In this document: positions 5,545 to 31,309 of the stretch, in pieces | Layout of the letters: every line of letters begins with the position of its first letter | Numbering within the stretch: the first letter of the stretch is position 1 | From: Klenkia brasiliensis | GTDB taxonomy: Bacteria; Actinomycetota; Actinomycetes; Mycobacteriales; Geodermatophilaceae | Length of the DNA: 64,000 bases | Assembly: GCF_900100695.1 (NCBI RefSeq) | Contig: NZ_FNCF01000001.1 | Span: 124,001-188,000, forward strand | Direction of reading: 5' to 3' | Program-made: the position numbers and the translations under genes | Notes under the pieces: model-generated | Told to the model about the DNA's origin: nothing | What the model saw: the letters and a program-made list of their open reading frames with translations, nothing else | Database searches by the model: none

Positions 5545-7115
5545 TGCCCGCCGTTCTTGCCGGCCCGCTGGACCGGGTGCGCACGACGCTGGCCACGATG
5601 ACCTTCCAGCAGAAGGCCATCGCCGCCGTCCTGGTGCTGGGCCTCGCGCTCGGCTCGTTCTTCTTCGTGCGCTGGGTGACCACGCCGACCTACGAGCCGC
5701 TGTTCTCCAACCTGTCGGCCAGCGACGCCTCCGCCATCCGCGACGAGCTGGACACCGAGGGCGTCTCCTACCAGCTGCAGGGCACCGACACGATCCTGGT
5801 GCCCAAGGACCAGGTGTACAGCCTGCGCCTGTCGATGGCCGGCAAGGGCCTGACCCCGCAGGCCGGCAGCGACTCGGGCTACGCGCTGCTGGACCAGCAG
5901 GGCATCACCACCAGCGAGTTCGAGCAGCAGACCACCTACCAGCGGGCGCTCGAGGGCGAGCTGAACAACACCCTCGAGTCGATGAACGGCGTGAAGACCG
6001 CCGCCGTGCACATCGCGATGCCCAAGGAGGAGGTGTTCGTGACCGACACGAGCAACCCGACCGCCTCGGTGCTGCTGGACCTCACCCCGGGCACCGACCT
6101 GTCCGGCGAGCAGGTGCAGTCCATCATCAACCTGGTCGCCGGCTCCGTCTCCGGCATGAAGCCCGCCGACGTCACCGTCACCGACACCGACGGCCAGCTG
6201 CTGTCCGCGGCCGGCGGCGTGGGCGGTTCGAGCAGCCAGTCCGACGCCACGTCGACCTTCCAGAACACGCTGCAGGCCAACGCGCAGAACCTGCTCGACC
6301 GCGTGCTGGGCCCGGGCAACTCCATCGTCACGGTCGCCGCGACGATGAACTTCGACCAGAGCCAGAGCACCGCGACCACCTACAGCTACCCCACGCAGAT
6401 CCCGGCGACGTCGGAGGCGACGACGTCGGAGACCTACACCGGCAGCGGCTCGGGCGTCAGCGGCGTGCTCGGCACCGACGGCACCACCGGCGGCACGACC
6501 GGCGGCGACGGGAACTACGACAAGAACTCCACGACGGTCAACAACCCGATCAACACCACCGTCACCAACACCGTCTCCACCCCCGGCCAGGTCGAGCGGC
6601 TCACCGTCGCGGTGGCCCTGAACACCGCCGGCGGCAGCACCGTCCCCAACGGCACGATCCAGGACCTGGTCAGCCAGGCCGTCTCGCTGGACCCCGCCCG
6701 CGGCGACGCCATCACGGTGTCCTCGATGGCCTTCAGCACCGCCGCCGCCGACGCCGCGCAGGCCGGCATCGCCGCGGCCGACGCCGCCGCCGCCAGCGAG
6801 CAGATGTGGTCGATGGTCAAGACCGGCGCCATCGTCGGCGGTCTGCTCCTGGTCCTGCTGCTCGTGTGGCTGAAGAACCGGAAGAAGAAGGGCGACCTCG
6901 ACGAGGACTACGAGGAGCTGGACGGCGACTACGACGACCTCGACGCGCTGCAGGTGGCCAGCACCCGCGACGCCGGCCTGCACTCGCGCACCGCGGCGGC
7001 CGTGGAGGCCATGGAGCGCCAGCGCCTGCGCGGTGAGATCACCAACATGATCGAGTCGCAGCCCGACGCCGTCGCGTCGACCCTGCGCGGCTGGTTGGCC
7101 GAGAGCCGGACATGA
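5544..7115 (+). CDS. fliF: Flagellar MS-ring protein FliF
   Basis: FliF builds the membrane-embedded MS ring that houses the export gate and carries the C ring. The 523 residues show an N-terminal membrane segment (about 20-42), periplasmic ring-building motifs with the YscJ/FliF domain (about 45-200, including LRLSMAGKGLTPQAGSDSGY and YQRALEGELNNTLESM), a Gly/Thr/Ser-rich linker (about 285-350), a second membrane segment (about 428-445, GGLLLVLLLVWL) and an acidic cytoplasmic tail with a final helix that binds FliG. Start overlaps the fliE stop by one base. Confidence 0.97.
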   Translation: MPAVLAGPLDRVRTTLATMTFQQKAIAAVLVLGLALGSFFFVRWVTTPTYEPLFSNLSASDASAIRDELDTEGVSYQLQGTDTILVPKDQVYSLRLSMAGKGLTPQAGSDSGYALLDQQGITTSEFEQQTTYQRALEGELNNTLESMNGVKTAAVHIAMPKEEVFVTDTSNPTASVLLDLTPGTDLSGEQVQSIINLVAGSVSGMKPADVTVTDTDGQLLSAAGGVGGSSSQSDATSTFQNTLQANAQNLLDRVLGPGNSIVTVAATMNFDQSQSTATTYSYPTQIPATSEATTSETYTGSGSGVSGVLGTDGTTGGTTGGDGNYDKNSTTVNNPINTTVTNTVSTPGQVERLTVAVALNTAGGSTVPNGTIQDLVSQAVSLDPARGDAITVSSMAFSTAAADAAQAGIAAADAAAASEQMWSMVKTGAIVGGLLLVLLLVWLKNRKKKGDLDEDYEELDGDYDDLDALQVASTRDAGLHSRTAAAVEAMERQRLRGEITNMIESQPDAVASTLRGWLAESRT

Positions 7116-8194
7116 CCCTGGCGTCCGTCGAGCAGATGGTGGGCCTGGAGCCCGGGGGCGACCCCGACCGGGCTCCCGTCCGCCTGCCCCGACGCGACCT
7201 CTCCGGCCTCCGCAAGGCTGCCCTGTTCCTTGCGCAGATGACCCGGGAGGAAGCGGGGGCCGTCATGGCCCAGCTGACCCCCGAGGAGATCGACGCCCTC
7301 ACCGGTGAGCTGATGCGGCTCAAGAGCGTGGACCCGGGCGACATCGACGACGTCCTGTTCGAGTTCCACGACCGGATGCTGCACGCGCCGTCGGTCGGCG
7401 CCGGCGGTCTCGAGTTCGCCCGCCAGGCCCTGACCGCCGGCCTGGGCGACGCCGAGGCCGAGGCCGTCCTCGGCCGGCTGCAGAGCGTCTACGAGGAGCC
7501 GCCGTTCACCTCGCTGCGCAACGCCGACACCCGGCAGCTGCTGTCCTTCGTGCGCGAGGAGCACCCGCAGATCATCGCGCTGGTGCTGGCCCACCTGCCC
7601 GCCCCGCAGTCGGCGGAGCTGATGAGCCGGCTGGACCCCGCGCGGCAGGCCGACGTCGCGCTGCGGATCGCGATGATGGACCGCACCACCCCCGAGGTCG
7701 TGCGGCTCGTCGAGGACGAGATCGGGCGCCGCATGGGCTCGCTGCTGTCCTCGCCGGAGCTGCCCGCCGCCGGTGGCGTGGAGACCCTGGTCGAGATCAT
7801 CAACCGGGCGTCGCGGCCGACCGAGAAGTCGATCCTGGAGGCCCTGGCCACCAACGACCCGGAGCTGGCCGAGCGGGTGCGCTCGCAGATGTTCGTCTTC
7901 GAGGACATCGTCATCGTCGACGACCGGTCCATGCAGCTGGTGCTCCGCGAGGTCTCCCCCGCCGACCTGGCCGCCGCGCTCAAGGGCGTGCGGGACGACG
8001 TCCGCGACAAGGTCATGCGGAACCTCTCCGAGCGCGCCGCGCTCGACCTCACCGACGAGATCGAGCTGCTCGGCCCGGTCCGCGCGGCCACGGTCGGCGA
8101 GGCCCAGGCCCGGGTGGTCGCGGTCCTGCGGACCATGGAGGAGTCCGGCCAGATCACCATCGACCGGGGAGGCGACGATGACCTCATCGCCTGA
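7112..8194 (+). CDS. fliG: Flagellar motor switch protein FliG
   Basis: FliG is the rotor component that contacts MotA and generates torque. All three domains are present in 360 residues: N-terminal FliF-binding (about 25-125, LRKAALFLAQMTREEAGAVM), middle with the EHPQ motif (EEHPQIIALVLAHLP, about 148-162) and the C-terminal torque domain (about 215-350) with the charged helix near VLREVSPADLAAALKGVRDD. ATGA overlap with fliF. The N-terminus is about 25 residues longer than usual. It ends inside the start region of fliH. Confidence 0.97.
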   Translation: MTLASVEQMVGLEPGGDPDRAPVRLPRRDLSGLRKAALFLAQMTREEAGAVMAQLTPEEIDALTGELMRLKSVDPGDIDDVLFEFHDRMLHAPSVGAGGLEFARQALTAGLGDAEAEAVLGRLQSVYEEPPFTSLRNADTRQLLSFVREEHPQIIALVLAHLPAPQSAELMSRLDPARQADVALRIAMMDRTTPEVVRLVEDEIGRRMGSLLSSPELPAAGGVETLVEIINRASRPTEKSILEALATNDPELAERVRSQMFVFEDIVIVDDRSMQLVLREVSPADLAAALKGVRDDVRDKVMRNLSERAALDLTDEIELLGPVRAATVGEAQARVVAVLRTMEESGQITIDRGGDDDLIA

Positions 8195-10330: not shown

Positions 10331-10779
10331 AGCGCACCGCCTTCCGGCTGCAGCCGGTCCTGGAGCTGCGCCGCGCGCAGGAGCGGGCCGCCGGCGCGGC
10401 CGCCGCCGAGGCCGCGCGCGCCGCGGCCCGCAGCGAGGCCCAGGCCGCCGACGTGGCCCGCTCGCTGGCCGCCGCCGAGCTGCCCGCGCGGATGGACGGC
10501 GCGACCTTCGTGGCCACCATGGTCGGGTTGCGCGCCCTGGCCGCCGATGAGGTGGATGCCCGGGCGAGCGCCCGGGCCACCGCCGAGCAGGCCGAGGCGG
10601 TGCGGGCGAGCTGGACCGCCGCCGCGCAGGCCACCAAGGCCCTCGAGCGGCTGGCCGAGCGGCACCGGCTCGCCGCCGTGCGGGCCGAGCTCGCCGCCGA
10701 GGAGCGCGCCGCCGACGACGTCGTCACCGGGCGGCACGGCCGCAACCGGACCCGGGAGGAGGACACGTGGAAGGCCTGA
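10327..10779 (+). CDS. fliJ: Flagellar export protein FliJ
   Basis: FliJ is the central coiled-coil stalk of the FliI hexamer. The 150 residues begin FRLQPVLELRRAQERAAG, the usual FliJ opening, and are almost entirely Ala/Glu/Arg coiled coil, broken around residue 55-65 by a Met/Thr stretch. GTG start overlapping the fliI TGA (GTGA). The last 13 bases overlap the next gene. Confidence 0.9.
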   Translation: MKRTAFRLQPVLELRRAQERAAGAAAAEAARAAARSEAQAADVARSLAAAELPARMDGATFVATMVGLRALAADEVDARASARATAEQAEAVRASWTAAAQATKALERLAERHRLAAVRAELAAEERAADDVVTGRHGRNRTREEDTWKA

Positions 10780-11729
10780 CCGCCGTCCAGAGCAGGATCG
10801 CCGAGATCCAGAGCCGCATGGCGACCTTCGCCGGCGGCGGACCGAACGCCGCGTGGCTCTCGGCCGCCTCCGCCGCCGGGCTGACGGGCACCGGCGCGAC
10901 CACCGCCGCGACCGGCACCACCGCCACCGCCGCGGCCGGGGGCTCGGCCGAGGCCGCCGTCGTGCAGGCGGCCACCAGCTACCTGGGGGTGCCCTACCTC
11001 TGGGGCGGCACCGACCCGGCCAAGGGCCTGGACTGCTCCGGCTTCACCCAGCGGGTGTTCGCCGACGTCGGCATCACCATCCCCCGCACCTCCAGCCAGC
11101 AGGCCACCGCGGGCACCGCCGTCGCGAGCCTCGCCGACGCCCGCCCCGGTGACCTCGTGTTCTTCGACAACAGCTCCGCACGCGCCGGCATCGACCACGT
11201 CGGCATCTACCTCGGGAACGGGAAGATGATCGCCTCACCGCAGGAGGGCGACGTCGTCAAGGTGCAGGACGTCGGCACCCCGACCGTCATCCGCCGGGTG
11301 CTCCCGGCCGCGGCGCCGACGGCCACGCCGTCGGGCGGCTCGCTGGCCGGGGTGCCCTACGCCGACCTGTTCACCTCCGCGGCCTCCCGCTACGGGGTCA
11401 GCGCCGCGGTGCTGGCCGGCATGGCCAAGGTGGAGTCCGGCTTCGACCCCGGCGCGGTGAGCCCGGCCGGGGCGCAGGGCCTCATGCAGTTCATGCCCGC
11501 GACCGCCGCCGGCCTCGGCGTCCGGCCGATGGACCCCGCCTCGGCCGTCGACGGCGCCGCGCGCTACCTCGCCCAGCTGACCGCCCGCTTCGGGTCCACC
11601 GACCTGGCGCTGGCCGCCTACAACGCCGGCCCGACCGCGGTCGCGGACGCCGGCGGCATCCCGGCGTTCGCCGAGACCCAGGCCTACGTGCGCAAGGTCA
11701 ACGCGGCCGCGGCGGGGTACGCGTCGTGA
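10767..11729 (+). CDS. NlpC/P60 endopeptidase-lytic transglycosylase fusion (FlgJ-like role)
   Basis: A 320-residue two-enzyme wall hydrolase. Residues about 58-178 are an NlpC/P60 cysteine peptidase: YLGVPYLWGGTDPAKGLDCSGF with catalytic Cys90 and GIDHVGIYLGNG with His144. Residues about 197-320 are a lysozyme-like SLT transglycosylase with catalytic Glu223 in KVESGFDPGAVSPAGAQGLM and a later ALAAYNAGP. No signal peptide or membrane segment is seen; the N-terminus is a short amphipathic helix (LTAVQSRIAEIQSRM). Its place among export and hook genes suggests it clears peptidoglycan for the rod, the task of FlgJ, and may be exported through the flagellar gate. Role and route are inference. Confidence 0.88.
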   Translation: MEGLTAVQSRIAEIQSRMATFAGGGPNAAWLSAASAAGLTGTGATTAATGTTATAAAGGSAEAAVVQAATSYLGVPYLWGGTDPAKGLDCSGFTQRVFADVGITIPRTSSQQATAGTAVASLADARPGDLVFFDNSSARAGIDHVGIYLGNGKMIASPQEGDVVKVQDVGTPTVIRRVLPAAAPTATPSGGSLAGVPYADLFTSAASRYGVSAAVLAGMAKVESGFDPGAVSPAGAQGLMQFMPATAAGLGVRPMDPASAVDGAARYLAQLTARFGSTDLALAAYNAGPTAVADAGGIPAFAETQAYVRKVNAAAAGYAS

Positions 11730-23339: not shown

Positions 23340-25373
23340 GTGAAGTGGACGACGGCAGCCGTGCCCATCGGCGTGGTGGCGATCGTCCTCATGCTCGTGG
23401 TGCCGATGCCCGCGATGCTGCTGGACCTGCTCATCGGGCTGAACATCGCCGGGTCGCTGCTCATCCTGCTGGTCGCCATGTCGATCAAGCGCCCGCTGGA
23501 CTTCGCCGTCTTCCCCTCCGCGATCCTGATCTTCACCCTGCTGCGGCTCGCGCTGAACGTCTCCTCGACCCGGCTGGTGCTCTCCGACGGCTACGCGGGC
23601 GCGGTCATCGAGGCCTTCGGCCACTTCGTGATCGGCGGCTCGCTGGTCATCGGCCTGGTGGTCTTCCTGATCCTGGTCGTCATCCAGTTCGTGGTGATCA
23701 CCAAGGGCGCCGAGCGCGTGGCCGAGGTGGGCGCCCGCTTCACCCTGGACGCGATGCCCGGCAAGCAGATGGCCATCGACGCCGACCTCAACGCCGGTCT
23801 GATCACCGAGGCGCAGGCCCGCAGGCGCCGCGCCGAGGTCACCGCCGAGGCCGACTTCTACGGCTCGATGGACGGTGCCAGCAAGTTCGTCAAGGGCGAC
23901 GCCATCGCCGCGATCATCATCGTGCTGGTCAACCTCATCGGTGGGCTGACCATCGGCATGGTGCAGAACGGCATGAGCGCCGGCGACGCGGTCAGCACCT
24001 ACTCGCTGCTGGCCGTCGGCGACGGCCTGGTGTCGATGGTCCCCGCGCTGCTGCTGTCCACCGCCACCGGCATCGTGGTCACCCGCTCGGCCGCCGACGG
24101 CGAGCTCGGTCAGGACATGATCGCCCAGCTCGGCCGCACCAAGCAGCCGCTGCGGATCGCCGGCGGCGCGATGCTGGCGCTGGCCCTCATGCCCGGACTG
24201 CCCAAGATCCCCTTCCTGGTCACCGGCGGCGTCATCCTGTTCCTGGCCTCCCGGGTGAAGGACGCCGTGCCGGAGGACGAGGACGCCGCCGCACCGGTCG
24301 CCGACGAGCCCTCCCCGGACTCCCCCGAGGCCATCGCCGAGAAGATGCGCGTGGACCCGCTGGAGCTCGAGGTCGCCTTCGACCTCGTCGAGCTGGTCGA
24401 CACCGCCCGCGGCGGCGACCTGCTGGACCGGGTCAAGGCCCTGCGCCGCAAGGTCGCCATGGACACCGGCCTGGTCATCCCGCTGGTGCGCACCCGCGAC
24501 AACCTCGACCTCCCGGCCTCCCAGTACGTGGTGTGGCTCAACGGCGTCCCCGTCGCAAAGGGGACGTCGCCGGCGGGCACCGTGCTGGCCATCGGCGACT
24601 CGCTGGAGGGCCTGCCCGGCAAGCCCACCCGCGAGCCGGTCTTCGGTCTGGCCGCCAAGTGGGTGCCCGCCGAGCTGCAGCGGCAGGCCGAGATGGCCGG
24701 GGCGACCGTGGTCGACCGGTCCTCGGTCATCACCACCCACCTGGCCGAGGTCGTGCGGCAGAACGCCGCGCAGCTGCTGGGCCGCGAGGACGTCAAGCTG
24801 CTGCTGGAGATGGTCCGCCGCTCGCACCCCGTGGTGGTCGAGGAGCTGACCGGCGGCGGGCTGTCGCTGGGCCAGGTGCAGCAGGTGCTGCAGGCGCTGC
24901 TGGAGGAGGGCGTCTCGATCCGCGACCTGGTCCGGATCTTCGAGGCGCTGTCGCTGCGCGCGAAGTCGGCCACCGACATCGACAGCCTGGTCGAGGCGGC
25001 CCGGGCGGCGCTGGGGCCGGCGATCAGCCACCCCTACGTGACCGCCGACGAGAAGCTGTACGTGATGACCCTCGACCCGGGCCTGGAGCAGCGCCTGCTG
25101 TCCGCGGTCCGGCAGGGCGAGCAGGGTGCCGTGCTGGCCCTGGACGCCGGCATGGTGGACGCGCTGGCCCGCGGGGCCAGCGACCTGCTCGACGACGCCG
25201 AGAAGCTCGGGATCACCGCGCTGCTGGTCTGCTCCCCGCAGATCCGTCCGGCGCTGTCCCGGCTGATGCGTCAGGTGGTGGCCCGCTGCACGGTCATCTC
25301 CTACGCCGAGGTCTCCCGCACGGCCCAGATCGAGACGATCGGAGTGGTGAACGGTGCCGTCGCACTTGCCTGA
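23340..25373 (+). CDS. flhA: Flagellar export gate protein FlhA
   Basis: FlhA forms the nonameric ring of the export gate, uses proton motive force and receives chaperone-substrate pairs. The 677 residues have the expected eight membrane helices in the first 310 residues, the FHIPEP-type loop ([20 protein letters not shown] then [20 protein letters not shown] with [14 protein letters not shown]) and a soluble C-terminal domain (about 340-677). The GTG at 23340 aligns with the family N-terminus (short basic start then [13 protein letters not shown]) and no Shine-Dalgarno is visible. It lies just after a sigma-28-type -10. Confidence 0.97.
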
Positions 25374-28300
25374 GCCGCCGTCCGGGGCGACCCGTGACGA
25401 GGCCATCGCCGCCGCACGCGAGGAGTACGGCTCCGACGTGCGGATCCGCGGCGTGCGCCGCATCCGCACCGGAGGTGTGGCCGGCTTCTTCAGCCAGGAG
25501 CGCTACGTCGCCGACGTCGTGCTGCCCGCCGGTGCCGAGGGCGCCGCCACGGCCACGGCGAAGCCCGCCACGAAGCCCGCCGCGAAGCCCGCCGCGAAGC
25601 CTGCGGCCAAGCCCGCGGCGAAGGCCACCCCGGCCCGGCCGGCCGGCGGCAAGCCCGCGGCCGCGAAGGCCGGCAAGGCCACCACGGCGGCCACGGCAGC
25701 CGGGCCGCAGGTCGCCCCGGCCCGCGCCGCGACCCCCGTCGTGGTCGCCGAGGTGCCCGCCGCCGGCCTGTCCCAGGCCGACGTCATGGCCCGCTGGCCC
25801 GCCGCGGGTCTGTCCGTCGACGACCTGCTGGAGGTCGCCCTGCAGGTCCGCGACGCCCAGCGCAGCGCCGACGACACCCCCACCGGTGCCCTCCCCGTCG
25901 TCGACCCGGTCGACGAGCTGGCCGACCTCCTGGGCTCCCCCGCGGACGCCGCGGTCGACGTCTACAGCCCCGCCTCGCTGGCCCGGTCCGCCGCGCCCGC
26001 ACCGCGCCGTACCGCCGCCGCGGACGCGCCGCGCACCACGGAGGGTGACCGCCCGGCCCGGCCGGCCGACCGCCCGGCCGAGGCCGCCGGTGCACCGGCC
26101 CGGAGCGCTCGCCGCCCGATCGCGACCCGCCGCGAGGAGGAGCCGGCCGCACCGGCCGCACCCGCGTGGGAGCGCACCTCCCGCACCGCGCCCGCGGTCG
26201 AGGAGCCGGTGGTCGAGGCCGCCGACGAGCAGGCGGCCCCCTCCCCCTTCGCCGCCGCCCTCATGCGCGTGGTGACCCAGGACGACGAGGTGCAGGCCGC
26301 GGTGGCCGACGCCGAGCAGCAGCACGACGAGGAGCAGCAGGTGGCCGCCGAGCAGGACCTGGAGCCGGTCGCGGCCGTCGCCCCCGACCGCGCCGCCGCC
26401 GTGCGCGCCGCCGCGCTGCGCGCCGAGGCCCAGGCCGTGGCCGCCGCCCGTGCCGACGCCGCCCGCCGAGAGGTGCTGGCCGCCGAGCTGGCCGACGCCC
26501 CCGCGCTGACCGCCGGGCCAGCCCCCGTCGAGCCGGCGCTGGTCGAGACCGCAGTGGTCGAGCCGGTGCTGGTCGAGACCGCAGTGGCCGAGACCGCAGT
26601 GGTCCAGCCGTCCGCGCCCGCCGCCGACGTCGTGGCGACCCCCGCCACCGGCACCGCGTCGCGCACCCCCGAGGAGCGCCGCGCCGCCGCCCGGGCCCGC
26701 GCCGAGGCCCGCCGCGCCGCGCGCGAGGCCCGTGCCGCCGAGGCGGCCGCGGCCGCCGAGGCCGTCGCCGCGCCCGAGCCGACCCCGGCGCCCGCCGCGG
26801 AGCCGGTGTGGGACGCGACCACCGTCATCGAGCTGGCGCCCCGGCCCGGTCGCCCCGCGGCCGCCCAGCGCCCCCCGGCCCCCGCTGCCACCCGCCCGGT
26901 CGCCCCTGCCCCCGCGCCGGTTGCCGAGGCACCCGCGGCGGCCGCACCCACCCGGGTGACGTCGGCCCGGGCGGCCGCCGCGCAGCTGCGGGAGGCCGCG
27001 ATCCGCGCCGCCGGCGAGCTCGCCGAGCGCCAGGTCGCCCCGGCCGGGCCCGCACCCGACCTGCTGGACGAGTTCGTCGACCCGGAGCTGGCCGCTGCCC
27101 CGGCGACGCCCACCGCGCCGCCCGCCCCCGTCGCCCCCGCCGCGTCCGCGGAGCCGTCGCTGCAGGAGCGCGCCGCGCGCCTGCGGTCCGTGCTGGCCGC
27201 CGCGACGCCGTCCGCCCCCGTCCCGCCGGCCGCCCCGGTGGGCGGTCCGGCCGAGGTCGCCGAGGAGCAGGTCCCGGCCCGCCGCAGCCTGCCGGCGGTC
27301 CCCCCGGCCGCGTCGGCGTCCCGCCAGGCCGCCGAGGCCGCCGAGGCCGCCCGCGTCCAGGCCGAGCGTGCCGCCGCCGAGGCCGCCCGGGTCGAGGCCG
27401 AGCGGCTGGCCGCCGAGCAGGCCGAGGCCGCCCGGGTCGAGGCCGAGCGTCTCGCCGCCGAGCAGGCCGAGGCCGCCCGCATCGAGGCCGAGCGTCTCGC
27501 CGCCGAGCAGGCCGAGGCCGCCCGCATCGAGGCCGAGCGTCTTGCCGCCGAGCAGGCCGAGGCTGCCCGCGTCGAGGCCGCCCGGGTCGAGGCCGAGCGT
27601 GCTGCCGCCGAGGCCGCCCGCCGTGGGGCCGAGCGTGCTGCCGCCGAGGCCGCCCGCGTCGAGGCCGAGCGCATCGCCGCCGAGCAGGCCGAGGCTGCCC
27701 GGGTCGAGGCCGAGCGTGCTGCCGCCGAGGCTGCCCGCCGTGAGGCCGAGCGCGTCGCCGCCGAGCACGCCGAGGCTGCCCGGGTCGAGGCTGCCCGGGC
27801 CGAGGCCGAGCGCGTCGCCGCCGAGGCCGCCCGGGTGCGCGCCGAGCAGGCCGCCCGCCGCGAGGCTGCCCGCGTCGAGGCCGAGCGGCTGGCCGCCGAG
27901 CAGGCCGAGGCCGAGCGGCTCGAGGCCGAGCGGCTCGAGGCCGAGCGCCTGGAGGCCGTCCGCGCCGCCACCGAGCGGGACGAGGCCGCGCGGGTGGCCG
28001 CCGAGCAGCGGGCCGCCGCCGAGCAGGCCGCCCGCGCCGCCGAGCAGGCGCGGGCCCGTCAGGCGACCGCCGACCGCACCGCGCAGGAGGTCGAGGACGC
28101 GGCCGCCGGTCGTCGGCGCACCCGCGCCGAGCGCCGCGCCGCCGCCGAGCTGGCCCGGGCCGGGGTCATCGTCCCCGCCGCCGTCCCCGTGGCGGTCGAG
28201 GTGCCCGAGGTCGACCCGCTGTGGGGCACCCCCGTGCGCCGCCCCGCCGAGGTCGTCGCGACCGTGGACGTCGTCGAGGACGGCGGCCGGCACCGAGGTT

Positions 28301-29694
28301 CGGCCCCCGTCGAGCAGGACGCGCCCGCCGCGGAGGCCGTCGTCGAGCCGGTCGTCGAGCCGGTCGAGGGTGTCCTCGTCGACGTGCCGCCGCCCGGCTT
28401 CCCCGCCGGTTCGCGGTACGACGAGGTGCTCTTCGGTAGCACCCGGTCCACCCCGCGTGCCGCGCAGACCGACCCGCTGGAGGCGCTGCGCGCCGCCGCC
28501 CTGGCCGGGGGCGCGGTCTCCCCGCGTCGCCGCCGCGCCGACAGCGCCGGCCGCCACCGCACGGCGCCGACCCAGGTGGACATGCCCGCCGTGGGCGCGG
28601 CCCGGCTGACCGCGCTGGAGGACCCGTCCGAGGCCACCTCCGGCTTCCTCGACGTGCTGCAGGCCGTGGCCGACAGCGACTTCGCCGCCCCCGCGCCCGC
28701 CGAGGCCCCGGAGGTCCCCGAGCTGCTGGTGCAGGAGATGGCGCACGAGATGGCCGCCGGCATGGCCGAGGAGCTCGCCCGCACCGCCACCGACCTGCCG
28801 ATGACCGCCGACGCCACCACGGTGCTGCCGGGCCTGGCCGCGGTCGTGCCGTCGTCGGTGCCGCGGGTGCGTGGCCACCGCCCGCCCGTCCCGGCGCCGT
28901 CGGGCCGGTCCCGCTCGCTGCCGCCGCACCCCTCCACCCGGATGCGCGGCACCCGTGGCGACGACGGCGACCGCTGGGCGACCATCACCCACCTGGTCCC
29001 GGTCACCGACGACGCCTCCCCCGCCGACAGCGGCGTGGCCGGACTGGCCGCGCTCGGTGTCCCGGCCGCGGTGCTGGGCGCCGACTTCGCCGCCGACGCC
29101 TCCCGCCGCGGCACGTTCGCCGCGCTGGCCTCCGCGCTGGGCCGGGCCCTGCCCGCCGCCCCGGCGATGCCGTCGGAGCCGGGTGACGTCCTCGTCGTCG
29201 TCGGCCCCGGTGCCGAGGCGCTGACCGCGGCGCGGGCGCTGGCCGTGGCGCTGCGGCTGGACCCGGCGCGGGTGCAGTGGTGCACCCGCGGCGCGCTCGC
29301 CGGGCTCGTGCCCGCCGACGTGCAGGTCGCCGGTGCTGCCGCGGCCGCCGACCGCCGGGCGCAGGCCGCCGAGGCCGACGTCCCGACCGTCGTGGCCGTC
29401 GACGTGCCCCTCGGGGACGCCGGTGGCGCCTGGGCCGCGCAGATGCTGCAGGCCTGGTCGGCCACGGCGGTGTGGGGCGTGCTCGACGCCACCCGCAAGC
29501 CCGGTGCGCTGCGCAACTGGCTGGCCGGGCTGCCCCGCGTGGACGCCGTCGTCGTCACCGACACCGACACCGCGCCCGACCCGGCCACCCTGCTGGACGG
29601 CCTGCCGGTGCCGGTCGCCGTCGTCGACGGTGCCCGGGCCACCCCGCACCGGTGGGCGGCCCTGCTCTGCGAGCGGCTGGCCGGTCGGCAATGA
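25354..29694 (+). CDS. Giant FlhF-like protein with degenerate SRP-GTPase domain
   Basis: A 1,446-residue protein directly after flhA, the usual place of flhF (SRP-type GTPase that sets flagellar position; 370-460 aa normally). Residues about 10-50 match the FlhF N-terminus ([20 protein letters not shown] then [17 protein letters not shown]). Next come Lys/Ala/Pro repeats (70-110), a long disordered Ala/Pro/Glu region, and an Ala/Glu/Arg coiled coil (about 655-910). The last 240 residues resemble SRP N plus G domains, but key motifs are lost: the P-loop reads GPGAEALTA (1284-1292), Leu1290 replacing the catalytic Lys; DTAGR becomes DVPLG; TKLD becomes TDTD. So GTP binding is unlikely. A structural polar or C-ring scaffold is inferred. 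GTG start; overlaps flhA by 20 bases. Confidence 0.8.
27358..27960 (+). repeat. Coding repeats of about 45 bases in the FlhF-like gene
   Basis: Imperfect tandem units of about 45 bases encode variations of [15 protein letters not shown], with shorter [12 protein letters not shown] variants. They form the long coiled coil. The repeats stay in frame, so this is protein repetition and not a CRISPR or satellite; unit number may vary between strains. Confidence 0.85.
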
Positions 29695-29930
29695 GCCCGC
29701 TGCGCTGGGACGTCCTCGGCGCAGCGGCGCTGTTCGCCGTCCCGGTCCTGCTGCTGGGCGCGGTGGGCACGCTGGACACCGACGTCGTGGTGGCGCGGCT
29801 GCCCTGGTGCCTGCTCGCCGGCTGGGTCGCCAGCTCGCTGCTGCGCGCCGTCTTCCCGGCGCCCAAGCCCGAGCCGCGTCCCCGCCGGCGCCCGCACCCG
29901 CCCGCCGAGGCCGAACCCGCCGACGCCTGA
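29691..29930 (+). CDS. Small two-helix membrane protein, hypothetical
   Basis: A 79-residue protein of unknown family. Two hydrophobic segments (about 9-27, [15 protein letters not shown], and 38-55, [17 protein letters not shown]) are followed by a Pro/Arg-rich then acidic tail. ATGA overlap with the FlhF-like gene makes it the last gene of the flhA unit and probably co-translated. A motility link is inferred from position only. DUF3054-type small actinobacterial membrane proteins look broadly similar, but I cannot confirm membership. Confidence 0.7.
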
Positions 29931-29940
29931 CGCGGCGGCG

Positions 29941-29954
29941 GGTCCGGCCGGACC
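29941..29954. terminator. Palindrome between convergent genes
   Basis: GGTCCGGCCGGACC, a perfect 14-base palindrome, sits exactly between the stop of the small membrane protein gene and the stop of the opposing PhoH gene. It could act as a short bidirectional terminator; the stem would be only about 5 bp. Confidence 0.35.
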
Positions 29955-31250
29955 TCAGAGCGGGATGTCCTCCAGCATCTCGGTGACCAGCGCGGCGATC
30001 GGCGAGCGCTCCGAGCGGGTCAGCGTGATGTGGGCGAACAGCGGGTGGCCCTTGAGCGCCTCGATGACGGCGGTGACGCCGTCGTGCCGGCCGACCCGCA
30101 GGTTGTCCCGCTGCGCGACGTCGTGGGTGAGCACGACCCGGGAGTTGGTGCCCAGCCGGGAGAGCACGGTCAGCAGCACGCCGCGCTCCAGCGACTGCGC
30201 CTCGTCCACGACGACGAACGAGTCGTGCAGGGAACGGCCGCGGATGTGGGTGAGCGGAAGCACCTCGATCAGCCCGCGGGCGAGCACCTCGGTGACCACC
30301 TCGCTGCTGACCAGGGCGCCGAGGGTGTCGAACACCGCCTGCGCCCAGGGCGCCATCTTCTCGCCCTCGGACCCGGGCAGGTAGCCCAGCTCCTGGCCGC
30401 CGACGGCGTACAGCGGCCGGAAGATGACCACCTTCTTGTGCGCCCGGCGCTCCATCACCGACTCCAGGCCCGCGCACAGCGCCAGCGCCGACTTGCCCGT
30501 GCCGGCCCGCCCGCCCATCGAGACGATGCCGACCTCGGGGTCCAGCAGCAGGTCCAGCGCGATCCGCTGCTCGGCCGACCGGCCGTGCAGGCCGAACGCC
30601 TCGCGGTCCCCCCGCACCAGCTTGACGTGCTTGTCGGCCGTCACCCGCCCCAGCGCCGAGCCGCGGGAGGACAGCAGCACCAGCCCGGTGTGCGTGGGCA
30701 GCTCGGCCGCGGCCGGCAGGAACGCCGTCCCGGTGTCGTAGAGCCCGGAGATCTCCTCGTCGGACAGCGACAGCTCGGCCATCCCCGTCCAGCCCTGGTC
30801 GACCGCGCCCAGACCGCGGTACTCGTCGGTCTCCAGACCCACCGCCGCGGCCTTGACCCGCAGCGGCACGTCCTTGGTGACCAGGCAGACGTCGCGGCCC
30901 TCGGCCCGCAGGTTCAGCGCGACGACCATGATCCGGCTGTCGTTGCTGTCGTTGCGGAACCCGGCCGGCAGCACCGAGGAGTCGGAGTGGTTCAGCTCGA
31001 CGTGCAGCGTGCCGCCGTCCTCGCCCACCGGGACCGGGGCGTCGAGCCGGCCGTGCTGCACCCGCAGGTCGTCGAGCATGCGGAGGGTCTGGCGGGCGAA
31101 CCACCCGAGCTCGGGGTGGTGCCGCTTCTCCTCCAGCTCCCCGATGACGACGAGCGGGACGACGACGTCGTGGTCCCCGAAACGGGCCAGGGCGCCCGGG
31201 TCGGAGAGCAGGACGGAGGTGTCGAGGACGAACGTGCGGCGGGTGCTCAT
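29955..31250 (-). CDS. phoH2: PIN-PhoH family ATPase/ribonuclease
   Basis: PhoH2-type protein with an N-terminal PIN nuclease fused to a PhoH helicase-like ATPase; mycobacterial PhoH2 unwinds and cleaves RNA. The 431 residues start [20 protein letters not shown], with PIN acidic residues in VLDTSVL and in [10 protein letters not shown] / LVTKDVPLR. The PhoH part (about 190-431) has Walker [13 protein letters not shown], Walker [12 protein letters not shown] and a [13 protein letters not shown] motif. The start is chosen at the ATG where PIN homology begins. Expressed leftwards, converging on the flagellar locus. Confidence 0.93.
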
Positions 31251-31309
31251 GGGTCGACTCCCAGGAGGCGCAGGGCGCGCCACGCATCGAAGGTGACCGG
31301 GTCCCGGCT

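Follow-up and report, generated by a model that had tools for sequence, protein, structure and literature searches.

A P-loop-less, putatively non-catalytic FlhF encoded behind flhA in Klenkia brasiliensis and in FlgF/FlgG-less Actinomycetota

FlhF, which uses GTP in the placement of flagella, is the third GTPase of the signal recognition particle (SRP) type, and the GTP dependence of its role varies between species (PMC12826062). In Shewanella putrefaciens, residues 1-60 of FlhF are both required and enough to bind FliG, and its NG domain binds HubP with or without GTP or GDP, thereby bridging FliG to the pole (PMC11236974); FlhG stimulates the FlhF GTPase (PMC11236974, PMC12826062). According to PMC10746217, the actinobacterial classes that lack FlgF and FlgG also lack FlhF. 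Here, we analyzed a 64,000-nt stretch of the Klenkia brasiliensis genome (assembly GCF_900100695.1, contig NZ_FNCF01000001.1, positions 124,001 to 188,000; hereafter the window), in which an original prediction, made from the letters alone, had proposed that a very long open reading frame (ORF) next to flhA encodes a non-catalytic derivative of FlhF. The ORF was confirmed with the predicted position, strand, and length (Table 1). We consider, with a probability of roughly 0.6, that it is an flhF orthologue that turned into a pseudo-GTPase, the simplest history being a single such event in the common ancestor of the FlgF/FlgG-less Actinomycetota, and that the FlhF/FlhG GTP switch was dismantled there. 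No pseudo-GTPase or non-catalytic FlhF was found described in the open-licence literature.

The two end domains and the G motifs

The C-terminal domain was modeled by AlphaFold2 (AF2) with high confidence (pLDDT 93.5, pTM 0.89), and the model, Foldseek, and VIA all identified an SRP-type NG fold, in agreement with the likeness to SRP GTPases that had been drawn by eye. Conversely, the GTPase motifs G1, G3, and G4 were not found in the protein. In a bridged alignment that used P-loop-bearing intermediates, GPGAEALTA, DVPLG, and TDTD stood opposite GQSGVGKTT (G1), DTAGR (G3), and TKLD (G4), respectively, which are the replacements originally noted. The profile chain linked intact NG domains with P-loop-bearing divergent NG domains (probability 99.7), and the latter with the P-loop-less family (probability 82.8, E = 9.4e-6). 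The P-loop pattern GxxGxGK[ST] was absent from all 25 full-length proteins compared (this protein and 24 relatives), and neither DTAG nor TKxD was seen by eye in the same set. It was also absent from all 79 named loci with a scorable C-terminus. These named loci, the 80 best of 112 candidates, bear titles of Geodermatophilaceae genera or of the family, except one labelled as an unverified Bacillus (L217); since they were retrieved with a peptide pattern of the P-loop-less family, they show constancy inside the family and not frequency. In each of the 65 that contain the whole ORF, one unbroken frame with the FliG-interaction domain (FID) motif ran from the FID to the NG domain.

The N-terminal domain was assigned to the FID type, and a second look at its model using VIA placed the FID first, ahead by one Z unit. 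The FlhF model TIGR03499 matched only residues 11-112 with 18.8 bits, well below its cut-off of 174.15 bits, and a PF00448 search of the genome missed the protein. The NG profile retrieved no significant chain from the PDB sequences (best E 0.1, an SRP54), and Pfam returned no domain for the full-length protein at E<=10, including LysM and the FimV C-terminal domain, although the lack of a match is not an exclusion. Together, the FID-type N-terminus, the NG fold, and the lack of a recognizable nucleotide-binding motif support, at the level of sequence and model, a probably non-catalytic protein derived from FlhF, as originally proposed. A weak resemblance of FID-type N-termini (alignment A2) to the N-terminal domain of Jag was also seen, with matches to 4 of 59 members (best E 0.026).

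Distribution of the P-loop-less form and of FlhG

Of 60 genomes (this one plus 59 relatives), 35 have flhA, and the C-terminal domain was found in 34 of these and in no other; in the remaining one (G044), the same slot is occupied by a 295-aa FlhF-like ORF that has no P-loop. In a phylum sample of 396 genomes including this one, 63 had flhA and seven matched the NG-like profile, while 15 exceeded the FlhF cut-off, including G173, which has no flhA match. We then scored an 85-row FlhA tree by reading the gene after flhA: 16 rows had a P-loop with DTAG[RH], 12 had the P-loop only, and 43 had neither. In seven rows, flhA had no FlhF-like neighbour, and another seven, cut off by contig ends, were excluded, one of which (G407) does have a P-loop. 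On the 71 scored rows, a single change of the P-loop state sufficed by parsimony, and one side of the actinobacterial FlhA tree has 43 scored rows, none of them with a P-loop. Thus, the degenerate form is not peculiar to this genome. The tree, in which long branches were flagged, comes from a quick search without bootstrapping, and the parsimony result is compatible with several later losses inside the clade. Manual labelling as P-loop-less, followed by a pattern check, was used for the order-level rows and for five further ones (G044, G097, G276, G137, and G186); a second, shorter P-loop-less type was counted as P-loop-less, as was G335 despite an apparently broken frame.

The P-loop-less side comprises 49 rows: the 43, three with a FID truncated at the edge of the contig (G165, G208, and G229), one whose contig stops within 350 nt (G400), and two that lack the gene (G142 and G372). 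A FID-bearing ORF follows flhA in 46 of them, and a genome-wide search with the FID profile found nothing elsewhere in G400, G142, and G372. This side includes 26 of the 63 flhA-bearing genomes of the phylum sample. The other side has 36 rows. Family f26 (G105, G288, G299, G351, and G439) showed no FlhF beside flhA and no FID match genome-wide; four of its five rows lie on short contigs (0.8-2.2 kb), and some of the seven gene-less genomes are incomplete. The model TIGR03506 (FlgE/F/G) matched 3-5 stretches per genome in 30 of 30 genomes from the P-loop-less side, against 7-11 in 24 of 26 genomes from the other (0 in G413 and G205), so that the P-loop split agrees with the FlgF/FlgG split. Because of this agreement, and because the FID-bearing gene is kept behind flhA, FlhF appears to have persisted on the FlgF/FlgG-less side and to have changed beyond what the searches of PMC10746217 accepted; its presence bears on the published presence/absence map. 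As judged from sequences and models, this would be an ancient, widespread pseudo-GTPase FlhF.

The activator appears to have gone as well. In 13 of 63 downstream stretches, flhF was followed by the gene of a ParA-type ATPase bearing a DQA motif, all 13 with a GPTGxGKTT FlhF (a 14th such locus is cut inside the FlhG start, and 12 of the other 49 stretches, at <=2.2 kb, are too short to test). When 26 whole genomes were searched, FlhG-grade matches occurred only in two with canonical FlhF (E 2.8e-250 and 5.4e-67), and the best matches in the other 24 were of superfamily level, with E 9.2e-14 or weaker. Among 30 higher-scoring match loci inspected, DQAxxLR was present in those two canonical genomes alone; two of the loci (L245 and L250) showed no Walker-type frame. 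In K. brasiliensis, all eight FlhG matches were of superfamily level (best E 1.6e-11), the two looked at (L240 and L256) were without DQAxxLR, and no Walker-type ATPase was found in the window. The PF00448 search of this genome yielded two SRP GTPases only, about 6 kb apart on a different contig, which we read as Ffh and FtsY; no second intact FlhF, which would have contradicted the original prediction, was found. Two genomes (G135 and G385) keep the P-loop and DTAGR without an adjacent flhG or FlhG-grade matches, suggesting that FlhG was lost first and the P-loop afterwards.

Several variants were seen beside the main family. The shorter P-loop-less type comprises 11 sequences (L095, L100, L101, L103, L108, L111, L122, L123, L129, L131, and L144; families f30, f43, f49, f53, f55, and f61), most with RLGLP ... 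RWLHLVVGG; its NG homology is less sure, since its alignment with the main family covers only the N-domain and first strand (probability 41.5). Eight FlhF sequences of f36 and f42 (L105, L120, L121, L125, L134, L140, L142, and L146) combine a P-loop with DTPPL or DTPPM where DTAGR would be expected, and flhG was not seen alongside (L142 is too short to test); judging from these motifs, they could possibly be a nucleotide-binding, non-hydrolysing intermediate. In L133 (G335), the frame is apparently broken after the FID and the remainder lies in other frames, through either decay or assembly error.

The locus, its linker, and candidate roles

Table 1. Features of the locus, in window coordinates
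Feature	Position	Strand	Remarks
fliG	7112..8194	+	Pfam FliG_N/M/C; expected partner of the FlhF-like N-terminal domain
flhA	23340..25373	+	directly upstream, 3' end overlaps the FlhF-like start; Pfam FHIPEP E 5.5e-252
P-loop-less FlhF-like gene (putative pseudo-GTPase)	25354..29694	+	1446 aa
FID-like N-terminal domain, residues 1-60	25354..25533	+	motif GGVAGFF at 25471-25491
Low-complexity linker, about 1160 residues	25534..29031	+	fast evolving, length variable
Tandem repeats inside linker	27328..28052	+	45-bp (15-aa) period to 27825, related repeats beyond
NG-like domain, residues 1227-1446	29032..29691	+	SRP-GTPase fold without G motifs; AF2, Foldseek, VIA
Degenerate G1 (P-loop) GPGAEALTA, residues 1284-1292	29203..29229	+	profile alignment
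Degenerate G3 DVPLG, residues 1350-1354	29401..29415	+	profile alignment
Degenerate G4 TDTD, residues 1402-1405	29557..29568	+	profile alignment
Small membrane ORF, 79 aa	29691..29930	+	overlaps the FlhF-like stop by 4 nt (ATGA at 29691); translationally coupled

The K. brasiliensis genome (4.45 Mb, 14 contigs) has the flhA-flhF gene order within a flagellar cluster in which Pfam confirmed flagellin, fliF, fliG, flgD, flgE-type, fliN-type, flhB, and flhA genes. Within the Geodermatophilaceae, one survey reported no motility among its Blastococcus strains (PMC9686282). The FlhF-like ORF starts with GTG and overlaps the flhA stop codon (25371-25373), and an overlap of 20-29 nt with the flhA end was estimated in all 64 testable named loci. 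The nearest named relative, K. taihuensis, is 99% identical across the NG-like domain. An opposite-strand open frame of 1997 codons (25294-31287, minus strand) was taken as a high-GC artefact. The cluster also encodes a double cell-wall hydrolase with NlpC/P60 and SLT domains (10767-11729, plus strand), possibly a stand-in for the rod-cap hydrolase FlgJ, which is reported missing in these classes.

The Ala/Pro/Glu/Arg-rich linker contains tandem repeats that encode an E/R/A-rich helix, which may stand alone as a single charged helix or form a coiled coil. The giant size and long coiled coil emphasized by the original prediction are not family traits: the 25 proteins range from 391 to 1660 aa, their linkers from 105 to 1379 residues, and 13 of them are without a P/G-free run of at least 40 residues. 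Compared with four Klenkia, the ratio of nonsynonymous to synonymous substitution rates (dN/dS), obtained by a simple count uncorrected for codon bias at this GC, was 0.00-0.17 in the FID, 0.03-0.18 in the NG-like domain, and 0.24-0.52 in the linker. Purifying selection thus acts on both end domains in Klenkia. Since linker length and helix content vary in the family and dN/dS is highest in the linker, the giant size looks like lineage-specific spacer growth rather than part of the functional core.

Directly downstream, with neither flhG nor the gene of about 200-240 aa found elsewhere intervening, lies the 79-aa ORF, which has one hydrophobic stretch above threshold (a second is present in many homologues) and is without a match in Pfam or NCBIfam. 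In 79 of 80 named loci, the FlhF-like gene was followed by a short ORF encoding a hydrophobic stretch, a count in which the choice of start favoured membrane segments; the 20 rows displayed were visibly related. In all six canonical loci examined, the order was flhF, flhG, one or two genes, and then an ORF with two transmembrane segments, while at 10 other loci a similar ORF came after a gene of about 200-240 aa (Pfam PilZ in the two tested, L118 and L055). We therefore dropped the idea that the small ORF replaced FlhG; already present downstream of canonical FlhF, it is an old neighbour. Its product is a candidate membrane partner or dock of the NG-like domain.

That both ends were kept while the nucleotide motifs and FlhG were lost leads us to infer a constitutive tether, and a scaffold role is plausible. 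The N-terminal domain may still bind FliG and thereby unite FliG with FliF or direct them to a site. The NG domain would dock constitutively on a protein or membrane instead of cycling on and off, perhaps on the coupled small membrane protein, and the long linker would join the two ends. In the full scenario, to which we give somewhat less than even odds, the flagellated branch represented by the 26 genomes builds, or once built, its flagella with FlhF in pseudo-GTPase form. Loss of FlhG would have left the GTP cycle without a use, the P-loop would then have disappeared in a single event, and the NG domain would have turned into a constitutive dock, leaving a fixed FliG tether with a linker reach of about 100-1400 residues. 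Both nucleotide and activator appear to have been given up in a deep clade that retains the two end domains, a natural experiment in which tether and switch come apart, and FlhF in this branch may act as a passive tether.

Several observations weigh against this reading. Foldseek of the N-terminal model gave no match at E<=0.001, and the P-loop-less N-terminal profile alone ranked 9en1 (FID) only second in the PDB, without significance (E 0.26), behind 4evz (E 0.05). Direct hhalign comparison of the P-loop-less family with intact NG domains was weak (probability 16.5, E 0.0015). The dN/dS values climb with distance, reaching 0.11-0.47 in the FID, 0.33-0.64 in the NG-like domain, and 0.66-0.93 in the linker against four farther genomes. 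The putative loss of nucleotide binding is read from motifs, and, according to PMC12713375, GTP binding is important for a stable FlhF-FliG complex in Pseudomonas aeruginosa. Finally, G142 and G372 carry flagellar genes inside the P-loop-less clade without having this gene; the protein is therefore not required everywhere.

These two genomes, together with the missing catalytic motifs and the apparently broken frame in G335, are what a decaying relic without function would predict, but the purifying selection on both ends in Klenkia and the 65 uninterrupted frames led us to reject this explanation, which the FID-bearing ORF in most rows of the clade also makes very improbable. The protein could instead serve assembly without positioning, recruiting FliG to FliF when the MS/C-ring is built, or regulating flagellar gene expression; the FID-type N-terminus and the position beside flhA suit such a role, which needs no landmark, and we regard it as possible though rather doubtful. 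The landmark view of the original prediction, in the style of HubP or TipN, has the giant protein mark a pole or organize a tuft through a functional coiled coil; it draws on the long helical repeats and large size in Klenkia and on an NG fold without G motifs. It seems unlikely, however, as 13 of the 25 members are without a P/G-free run of at least 40 residues, a linker can be as short as 105 residues, the ends are better conserved than the linker, and no Pfam domain was found in the full protein. An NG domain that still switches by binding nucleotide or another ligand through new residues is less likely still: near the old pocket, G51, G58, K156, and P184 are invariant and T154, R155, and A185 nearly so in the 25 sequences, but none of these proteins has the P-loop pattern or, by eye, DTAG or TKxD, and FlhG was not found.

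Comparison with known systems

With FlhF proper (TIGR03499; structures 8r9r and 2px3, and 9en1 for the FID), the protein shares the slot after flhA, the FID-type N-terminus, a linker, and the NG fold; it differs in being without G1, G3, and G4, in scoring below the TIGR03499 cut-off, in having no detected FlhG, and in a family linker of up to 1379 residues. FlhF of the actinobacterial families f39, f27, and f25 has the same operon slot and a similar N-terminal domain, but carries GPTGxGKTT with DTAGR or DTAGH and has flhG next door. Closer are the P-loop-bearing FlhF proteins of f35, f36, f42, f56, f60, and f73, which likewise have no flhG beside them, have a diverged G3 in most cases, and form the best profile bridge to this protein, from which they differ in keeping GK[ST] in G1. 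The NG domains of FtsY and Ffh have intact G motifs, unlike this protein, and no FID, and the two SRP GTPases of this genome are genes separate from the FlhF-like one. HubP/FimV and TipN are large proteins with long helical or disordered regions, and resemble the present protein in these respects; the present protein differs in its SRP-GTPase fold, and no Pfam domain was found in it.
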